A DNA stretch of 64,000 nucleotides from Holosporales bacterium (GTDB lineage: Bacteria; Pseudomonadota; Alphaproteobacteria; Holosporales; Holosporaceae). Location of the stretch: the NCBI GenBank assembly GCA_947461445.1, contig CANHKV010000001.1:1-64000 (forward strand), written 5' to 3'. The notes under the pieces are model-generated. The model searched no databases and had not been told where the DNA came from. It worked only from the letters and a program-made list of their open reading frames with translations. Positions 40,786-43,677 of the stretch are shown here, piece after piece. The position numbers and the translations under genes were made by a program. Numbering within the stretch: the first letter of the stretch is position 1; each line of letters begins with the position of its first letter.

Positions 40786-41919
40786 ATGTTCTATCTGTCC
40801 ACCATCATAGACAATTTTGTCCAAAAAATCATCCTTATTTTCTGTTTTACGGCCATTTGTTTTTGTGCAAAAACCATTGACGCTGTGGAGTTCACGGAAA
40901 ACCCCAAACACCATTCTGGGAACAACGATTGGAATTGTGTTGAGACAGCCCTTAAAGACGTAAATCTGCAATATAAAATTACTCCTCACTCAAAATTGGG
41001 CCCTGTGTACACAGTGATTCCCCGTTTTGGTTCGTTGTCTTGCCATATTTTTGATCCCAGTAACGAAAACAAAGTGGAACCAGACGATCTAATAAAGAAC
41101 AGAGAAACCATCACAGACATCATTATGCATCATACGGGATGTGACCTGGGTCAAACACTGAAAATATTTTCCAATGGGGAGTCTCCGTTTGTTAATGCTC
41201 ATTTTATCGTTACAGAAACGGGAGACATTATTCAAATGGTCGATCCAAAATATGTGGCACGACATGCGGGAATTAGTGAATTTCGAGGAAAAAAATTCTA
41301 CAATCTTTGCAGCATTGGCATCGAAATGGTTAATACAGGTTTTGAAATTAATGGGGCCAGTAAAAATGTAAAAATGACAGAAATTGCAAAATTAACAGAA
41401 TACCCAAAAAATCAAACGGAATCTGTTTTTAATTTGATTAAATTTTTATGTGGTGAGTACGGAATAAAAGACAATATCTTTGCTCATGGCGATGTGGCTC
41501 CCACCAGAAAATGGGATCCCACCAGTACGTTCCCCTGGAACGACCTTTTTAGTCAGGAATTTGGTATGGGTGTATCCGATGATCAAATCAAGGAGGCTAG
41601 GCAAATCTTGGGCCAAAAGATGTGTCTGCGTTCAGAATGCGGAAAGAGATGTTTTGATCAGACTTTTTATGCCTTGTTACGGTGCTTTGGATATACTGTA
41701 CTAGACAATGCTGTATCCAAGGATATCAATGAATATAAAAATGACGTACATAACCCCGTTATGGCGTTTCTTGCTCATTTTTCACGCAATGGTCAAGATA
41801 TTGAAAAATTACGCGAACCTTTGGTGTTTACCGATTTGTGCCATCTGTATGCTTTGTGTAAAAAATACCCAACAGGAAACAATCCAAATATTGATGCGCT
41901 GATAAAATCTTGCGAATAA
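40786..41919 (+). CDS. N-acetylmuramoyl-L-alanine amidase (Amidase_2, AmiD-like)
   Basis: The 377-residue exported enzyme should cleave the muramoyl-L-alanine bond of peptidoglycan or anhydro-muropeptides. A hydrophobic N-terminus (IILIFCFTAICFCA) acts as signal. The Amidase_2 domain runs from about residue 105 to 265 and has zinc-site motifs: TDIIMHHTG (His), NAHFIVTETGDIIQMVD, SIGIEMVN and FAHGDVAPTRKWDP (His and Asp). An extra C-terminal domain of about 100 residues contains GYTVLDNAVS and AFLAHFSRNG, resembling a small wall-binding region. It is followed by a paralogue 80 bp downstream and divergent from pheS. Confidence 0.85.
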   Translation: MFYLSTIIDNFVQKIILIFCFTAICFCAKTIDAVEFTENPKHHSGNNDWNCVETALKDVNLQYKITPHSKLGPVYTVIPRFGSLSCHIFDPSNENKVEPDDLIKNRETITDIIMHHTGCDLGQTLKIFSNGESPFVNAHFIVTETGDIIQMVDPKYVARHAGISEFRGKKFYNLCSIGIEMVNTGFEINGASKNVKMTEIAKLTEYPKNQTESVFNLIKFLCGEYGIKDNIFAHGDVAPTRKWDPTSTFPWNDLFSQEFGMGVSDDQIKEARQILGQKMCLRSECGKRCFDQTFYALLRCFGYTVLDNAVSKDINEYKNDVHNPVMAFLAHFSRNGQDIEKLREPLVFTDLCHLYALCKKYPTGNNPNIDALIKSCE

Positions 41920-41999
41920 AATTCTGATTTTTATTAACACTTTTTTGTTGAAATGTATTTAAATTAGTATTATTAATATGGGTTTATTTTGCAATCTTT

Positions 42000-42824
42000 T
42001 TGTTAAACATTATTTTTGTGTGTTGTTTGTGGTTTTGTGCGGCTGTGAACGCCGATTTTAAAAAGGATGTGTATGCCAAAACAGGGATTACATTAAAAGA
42101 TTTGGGAAAAAATCAGTATCAATTCGTGCCCTTTGAGGAAAAGCGGGCCCATAGAAATCATTATTTTATGCGACCAGAGGGGCAAACAGTCACCACAATT
42201 CTTTTGCATGATACCGTTGGCGGGGTGTTTTCCGCATTAAACAAGTTTTCCGATGGAAAAGAGCCCCCATTAAACGCCCATTATGTTATAACAAAAAAAG
42301 ATGGTCAGGTTCCTGCAGGATTGGTCATTGAAATGGTGCCACCGCCATTGATGGCCCAACATGCTTGGCCCAGTTGGTTTCGTGGAAAAGATGATGCGAA
42401 TCAATATGCCATTGGTATTGAATTGGTGGGAAAAGGATTTGTGGATCAAGGCAGAAAACGTTATTTTTATGCCTATGATCCTATGCAAATCAAGGCATTG
42501 GCTGTTTTGCTGGCCCGTTTGGTTAAAGAATATGCCATTCGTCCAGAAAATATTCTTTCTCATGCCGACGTATCGCCCCAACGGAAATACGATGTCACCA
42601 TTCTTTTTCCCTGGCGCGCATTGTATGAAAAATATGGGTTAGGCATGGGATTGGATGGGGACGAACGTACCATACAACGCATCATGAAAAAGTTTCCAGT
42701 ATCCCTTGCTCTTCCCGAAAAATTCAATGAGGCATTTTTTCAAAATATGTTGACGTTGTTGGGGTATGATACCCGTTTTGCTGATGATTATGATGCATCT
42801 GCTGGGGAAAAAAGGGCCAAGTGA
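42000..42824 (+). CDS. Second Amidase_2 paralogue, cut by in-frame TGA
   Basis: The 274-residue product is paralogous to the preceding amidase. It starts at TTG 42000 with a signal peptide (LNIIFVCCLWFCAAVNA). An ATG at 41978 in another frame gives a similar leader, which hints at a small indel near the T-run. Amidase motifs: TTILLHDTVGG, NAHYVITKKDGQ, YAIGIELVG and LSHADVSPQRKYDV. The catalytic domain is complete. The stop TGA at 42822-42824 interrupts the C-terminal domain; the same frame continues after it with AFYAHYSRNGQ, which matches the upstream paralogue. Confidence 0.8.
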   Translation: MLNIIFVCCLWFCAAVNADFKKDVYAKTGITLKDLGKNQYQFVPFEEKRAHRNHYFMRPEGQTVTTILLHDTVGGVFSALNKFSDGKEPPLNAHYVITKKDGQVPAGLVIEMVPPPLMAQHAWPSWFRGKDDANQYAIGIELVGKGFVDQGRKRYFYAYDPMQIKALAVLLARLVKEYAIRPENILSHADVSPQRKYDVTILFPWRALYEKYGLGMGLDGDERTIQRIMKKFPVSLALPEKFNEAFFQNMLTLLGYDTRFADDYDASAGEKRAK

Positions 42825-43031
42825 GCCAATGTGTATCAGGCCTTTTACGCCCATTATTCCCGCAATGGTCAGGCCTGGTTATGGCGGGGAAAACCTGATT
42901 CCCGCGATTGTTTTTGGGCTTTTGCTTTGTGGGCTAAATATTTTGGAAAAAATATTAAAAAGGAGACAAAAAAAGAAAATGGACTGGTGGATTCATGGGG
43001 ATCTGTTCCTGTCAGAGAATTTGTGATATAG
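42825..43031 (+). pseudogene. Severed C-terminal part of the second amidase
   Basis: Directly after TGA 42822-42824, the same reading frame stays open for 68 codons to TAG 43031. Its start reads ANVYQAFYAHYSRNGQAW, matching AFLAHFSRNGQ in the C-terminal domain of the upstream paralogue, and its middle has FWAFALWAKYFGKN. No independent ribosome site is seen. It is therefore the detached tail of the amidase gene, unless the TGA is read through. Confidence 0.75.
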
Positions 43032-43137
43032 CTGAATCTGAAACATTATAAAACAGAACCCTTTACATTTTTTTCAAATTTTTCAATGATTATGGGGAAT
43101 GTAAGGCAGATTCACATCAAAACGGAGAATTTTAACG

Positions 43138-43677
43138 ATGAAACATTATATTTGGCTGAGTGTGTTATTGGCAATGGGCGTTGTTCAAGCTGCTGATGCG
43201 GCTAAGGCAGAAGAAAAAGTGGAAGCATCAACAGACGCCCCCGCAGCAGAAGATAATACAGACGCCCCCGCAGCAGAAGAGAGTGCAGAGGCCCCAGCAG
43301 CAGACGACGAAGCCGCATCAGGAGCCATTTCTGCCGATGCTGGAGAAGAAAGCAATTCAGAAGGAGATTCATCCAAAAAGTCCAAAAAATCTAAAAAGTC
43401 AAAAAGAAAAGGTAAAAAAGGTAAAAAAGGGAAAAAGAGCAGAAAAAGTCTCAAAAATAAAAATCACAGAAAAGGTCACAAGGGTGGAAGCAAAGTCTCT
43501 GCCCCCAGCAGCAGCGTATTGAATGCCTATATGAATCGTGTTCAGAATGGTGAAATGTACAGCAATGCCTCCGGTACCAGCATGACCGCAACCGTATCTG
43601 ATCAAGGTGGATGTGCCACAGGCAAGTGTGGTTTGGCCATAGCAGAACAAAGTGCCACACCAGAGGCCATGGCATAA
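43138..43677 (+). CDS. Exported Ala/Glu- and Lys-rich protein
   Basis: The 179-residue protein has a signal peptide (MKHYIWLSVLLAMGVVQA). Three regions follow: an acidic Ala/Pro/Asp repeat part (25-75, TDAPAAED-type units), a Lys/Ser/Gly-rich basic block (80-115) made of KKSKKSKK and GKKGKKGKK units, and a less biased C-terminus with two Cys in GGCATGKCG. A good ribosome site (GGAGA) precedes ATG. The charge arrangement, acidic then strongly basic, could bind polyanions such as wall teichuronates, LPS or nucleic acid; this is inference. It follows two amidase genes and has its own strong terminator. Confidence 0.7.
   Translation: MKHYIWLSVLLAMGVVQAADAAKAEEKVEASTDAPAAEDNTDAPAAEESAEAPAADDEAASGAISADAGEESNSEGDSSKKSKKSKKSKRKGKKGKKGKKSRKSLKNKNHRKGHKGGSKVSAPSSSVLNAYMNRVQNGEMYSNASGTSMTATVSDQGGCATGKCGLAIAEQSATPEAMA

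Follow-up and report, generated by a model that had tools for sequence, protein, structure and literature searches.

A probable recent nonsense truncation of the second of two tandem AmiD-type amidases in a reduced Holosporales genome

The window, that is, the whole stretch of 64,000 nucleotides analyzed here, carries two tandem AmiD-type peptidoglycan amidase genes (Table 1). Both products matched the Pfam family PF01510 (Amidase_2), with E-values of 9e-23 for the first and 5e-17 for the second, and the match of the AmiD-type amidase reached 62.8 bits against a curated cut-off of 26. A sequence-only reading of the locus had recognized the two as adjacent Amidase_2 paralogues, which these matches confirm. 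It had placed them at 41978-43031, an interval that holds the second amidase; the first lies upstream of it. Across the whole 835-kb genome (a draft of 18 contigs, 98% complete), these two tandem genes were the only Amidase_2 matches. The second amidase consists of a predicted signal peptide, a full Amidase_2 domain, and a stump of a C-terminal domain.

Table 1. Features of the tandem amidase locus, in window positions
Feature	Position	Strand	Evidence
First AmiD-type amidase, 377 aa, catalytic and C-terminal domains intact	40786..41919	+	PF01510, E 9e-23
ATG in the wrong frame for the second amidase	41978..41980	+	Three-genome alignment, translations
Truncated second AmiD-type amidase, 274 aa if read from the conserved TTG	42000..42824	+	
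Stretch of the second amidase with predicted zinc ligands and active-site Glu	42207..42593	+	Alignment of 26 relatives
Remnant (helix 1, beginning of helix 2) of the C-terminal wall-binding domain	42717..42821	+	AlphaFold models
In-frame TGA of the second amidase; Trp codon in both congeners	42822..42824	+	
Orphaned tail: 68 codons (42825-43028) for the remainder of helix 2 plus helix 3, followed by TAG (43029-43031)	42825..43031	+	

We regard the host as a reduced, 'Candidatus Finniella'-like member of the Holosporales. Finniella, a genus within Candidatus Paracaedibacteraceae, comprises cytoplasmic symbionts whose hosts are cercozoans and ciliates. The described genome of F. inopinata is 1.8 Mb (PMC11909080), and the 0.8-Mb genomes considered here are at most relatives of that species. 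Both other genomes in the genus, G001 and G002, were used for comparison; their identity to the window genome is 85 to 87%, and the comparison within the genus thus covers three genomes with one assembly each.

Several observations were made around the pair and elsewhere. A secreted-looking protein of 179 residues is encoded at 43138-43677, with an alanine/acid-rich N-terminal half and a lysine-rich middle. It is fast-evolving among the congeners, and the intergenic stretch ahead of its gene (43032-43137) is nearly invariant. At L037:126-899 (G001 contig 15) we found a divergent third amidase-like protein, the C-terminal end of which carries a tandemly repeated unit of about 20 residues (LTQQDSSVLSSGIETIPD); L035, the window genome's copy, has this unit just once.

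The catalytic domain of the second amidase is complete. Predicted zinc ligands are His70 (42207-42209), His188 (42561-42563), and Asp198 (42591-42593), and the predicted active-site residue is Glu141 (42420-42422). These roles were assigned through homology to AmiD, in which the Escherichia coli equivalents of the ligands are H50, H166, and D176 (PMC5543032). An alignment of 26 relatives showed no variation at any of the four residues, in agreement with the earlier view that the catalytic motifs remain intact.

Where does translation of this enzyme begin? The ATG at 41978 had been described as frame-shifted relative to the enzyme, and the translations bear this out. An in-frame ATG of G002 aligns to ATA 41976 of the window; such an ATG is likewise missing from G001, yet its second amidase is full-length. 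A TTG at 42000 is in frame and conserved in all three genomes, and the leader read from it, MLNIIFVCCLWFCAAVNA, is plausible. Translation may truly begin at the TTG in all three genomes; otherwise, the ATG is peculiar to G002 or was lost twice. Only 16 of the 49 long ATG-first open reading frames (ORFs) have a Shine-Dalgarno-like motif, so its absence at the second amidase says little. Decay had been suspected at both ends of the gene. The 3' part of this suspicion stands, but the 5' part is weak, given that the ATG-less G001 gene is whole and the TTG is shared by all three genomes.

Among solved structures, E. coli AmiD (2bh7/3d2y) ranks as the best relative, both by sequence (E 1e-21) and by fold over both domains. 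The likeness to E. coli AmiD (PDB 2bh7, 2wkx, 3d2y, 3d2z) extends to the Amidase_2 catalytic domain with its conserved His, His, Asp, and Glu, to a C-terminal three-helix domain with the AF..HF / G..D / KY pattern, and to export, which is predicted here. However, E. coli AmiD is an outer-membrane lipoprotein with a lipobox, whereas none was evident by eye in the leader MLNIIFVCCLWFCAAVNA-DF; the second amidase is therefore probably not an outer-membrane lipoprotein. The window enzyme also has DVT where DPG follows the RK motif in AmiD, and its second copy is without most of the C-terminal domain. Wolbachia, a reduced intracellular alphaproteobacterium, has an AmiD homologue with a signal peptide but no lipobox (PMC5543032). 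This AmiD is functional in wMel, whereas its gene has become a pseudogene in wBm, so decay of an AmiD gene in endosymbionts is a known event (PMC5543032); the present case differs in having a tandem pair, of which different members decay in different species. AmpDh2 and AmpDh3 of Pseudomonas aeruginosa (PDB 4bol, 4bxj) share the fold and the two-domain layout (Foldseek E 1e-16 to 1e-17). Their sequence similarity is below that of AmiD. AmpD is a cytoplasmic recycling enzyme without a signal peptide. Its catalytic domain (PDB 1j3g) is homologous, and the truncated copy resembles it in having no complete wall-binding domain, but the score of 61 bits is far under the NCBIfam AmpD cut-off of 143.

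Our alignments revealed that the codons after the in-frame TGA match the C terminus of the first amidase, for example, NVYQAFYAHYSRNGQ versus NPVMAFLAHFSRNGQ, as the sequence-only reading had proposed. The tail, which encodes peptides such as ANVYQAFYAHYSR, is 76% identical to its counterpart in G002, and the TAG that follows it is common to G001. We rejected the open length past the TGA as evidence in itself, since 67-codon open stretches are common here: they occur at 18% of random positions (any frame) and past the stop of 8 of 89 long ORFs. The evidence for the tail is thus its homology. The C-terminal AF..HF motif is widespread among distant relatives, which indicates that the tail is ancestral.

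In both G001 and G002, a tryptophan codon occupies the position of the TGA and the frame continues through the tail, within DNA that is nearly identical across the three genomes around this site. The TGA is therefore derived, and parsimony places a Trp-to-stop substitution on the branch of the window genome. The comparison with close relatives also shows that the tail is not always absent. The G002 enzyme ends at its own TAG, a few residues short of the common stop, so the extreme C terminus is dispensable; this TAG, however, lies well downstream of the site at which the window has its TGA.

What does the truncation remove? The AlphaFold model of the full-length G002 enzyme has C-terminal helices at residues 252 to 262, 276 to 295, and 309 to 335, and it matches AmiD over both domains (TM 0.78, 260 alignment columns, 257-residue target). 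The TGA corresponds to residue 283 of G002, within the second of the three predicted helices. In the model of the truncated protein, the stump has pLDDT values of 43 to 79, and the catalytic core is mostly at or above 90. The tail was aligned by hhalign through to the end of AmiD. A Pfam search returned no match to a peptidoglycan-binding family, even for the whole relatives. A complete C-terminal helical wall-binding domain is present in the first window copy and in the G001 and G002 relatives, and the second window copy is cut within helix 2. The second gene thus appears to have lost about the last fifth of the enzyme to a single-codon stop mutation, recently. Of the two explanations offered earlier for the TGA, loss of a wall-binding tail by nonsense mutation gains support from the tryptophan codon and intact tail of the congeners and from the match to the AmiD C-terminal domain.

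The other explanation, that the TGA is read through, found no support. Such readthrough, either programmed or with UGA meaning tryptophan or selenocysteine, would yield a long and a short form; a change from Trp to TGA is what one would expect where UGA codes for tryptophan, and the tail is still under constraint. However, release factor 2 is present (474 bits; found in the window genome and nine relatives). TGA terminates 40 of the 108 non-overlapping ORFs of contig C1, to which our statistics were confined, and among the 557 codons aligned there to a tryptophan of G002 genes, 528 are TGG, 3 are TAG, and only 1 is TGA, namely, the one at 42822. We therefore rejected recoding of UGA as tryptophan, and likewise as selenocysteine, because a search for SelB gave no match above the cut-off. 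A programmed signal would be conserved across relatives together with its tail, unlike this stop, which both congeners replace by a tryptophan codon. The leaky stop context is UGA-C, whereas the base after this TGA is G. We consider readthrough very improbable.

Could the mutation be old? The dN/dS values between genomes were alike for the tail (0.21 to 0.37) and the body (0.17 to 0.31). On the branch of the window genome, the tail has 7 synonymous and 9 nonsynonymous changes; the latter are fewer than expected under neutrality (binomial P 0.04) and do not differ from other branches. This purifying-type pattern suggests that constraint lasted until recently, so that either the mutation is recent or the TGA is an error of the consensus. 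The nonsense mutation is probably recent, although fewer than 20 changes in the tail speak to this only weakly. If the TGA reflected a mistake in sequencing or assembly, or a minority allele, the gene would be whole in the living population. The still conserved tail, the draft state of the assembly, and the reliance on three genomes with one assembly each would all fit an error, as would the switching of identity between the two relatives across the locus. However, the TGA stems from one substitution within unique coding sequence rather than from an indel in a homopolymer, and the gene body is otherwise unbroken; the switching is equally what ordinary recombination would give. On balance, we hold an error to be unlikely.

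The switching spans 41020-42700 along the amidase pair. Identity to G002 is 97 to 100% over about 41,100-42,100, against a contig median of 89%, and the stretch 42,370-42,640 is closer to G001 (91 to 97%). Interspecies recombination or an assembly of mixed strains may underlie this mosaic. A few other genes of contig C1 also have derived in-frame stops, in both directions, which is the usual background for a reduced genome. At locus L042, two TAG codons (contig C1 93720 and 93789; Trp48 and Gln70) interrupt a gene whose G002 counterpart is an intact 319-residue ORF. This gene is probably a further pseudogene.

The reading that we prefer, and with good confidence, is that one of two redundant AmiD-type amidases was recently truncated by a nonsense mutation, in other words, ordinary gene decay. 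The first amidase is 90% identical to the intact copy in G002, which keeps both genes. In G001, numerous stops and frameshifts have destroyed the first amidase, whereas the second is whole. On these sequences, the decay of the paralogues is reciprocal: the window genome is hit in the second copy and G001 in the first. The two copies thus appear to be interchangeable. Murein synthesis genes are present (MurA and penicillin-binding transpeptidases), and a cell-separation amidase of the Amidase_3 type was found in none of the five genomes examined, so these bacteria probably depend on at least one enzyme of the AmiD type.

According to this explanation by gene decay, a Trp-to-UGA nonsense substitution struck the downstream member of two tandem genes for putatively exported AmiD-type N-acetylmuramoyl-L-alanine amidases, and translation would stop within helix 2 of the three-helix peptidoglycan-binding domain at the C terminus. 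The product is predicted to be exported and to retain its entire zinc amidase catalytic domain, without a functional wall-binding domain. It may be a soluble enzyme with residual activity and reduced wall affinity, or the gene may be an early pseudogene. The truncation would be tolerated because the intact neighbor covers the function, as the mirror image in G001 and the retention of both genes in G002 suggest.

Alternatively, the shortened amidase could be a favored, stable form, freed for soluble muropeptides and dividing labor with its intact neighbor. The cut leaves the catalytic domain, ligands, and leader intact, and AmpD, of the same family, is a catalytic domain alone (187-residue entry 1j3g). 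The ratio of nonsynonymous to synonymous changes in the body, 15:6 on the branch of the window genome versus 55:65 on the others (P 0.035), would fit adaptation or relaxation; we do not lean on this excess, which is confounded by the local recombination or mosaic. The cut, however, falls in mid-helix and leaves a half-folded stump, and the reciprocal loss in G001 resembles plain redundancy. We thus find a favored short form improbable. Equally doubtful, if not slightly more so, is that this UGA-shortened amidase is stable, functional, and released from the wall, which would give the cell one anchored and one free AmiD-type amidase where no Amidase_3 was found.

The truncation reveals no new mechanism. 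It provides a small, clean example of ongoing gene loss, in which a duplicated wall amidase is being lost as different copies in different species. It also brings AmiD-type enzymes into the picture of wall remodeling in a lineage that has wall synthesis genes but yielded no Amidase_3.
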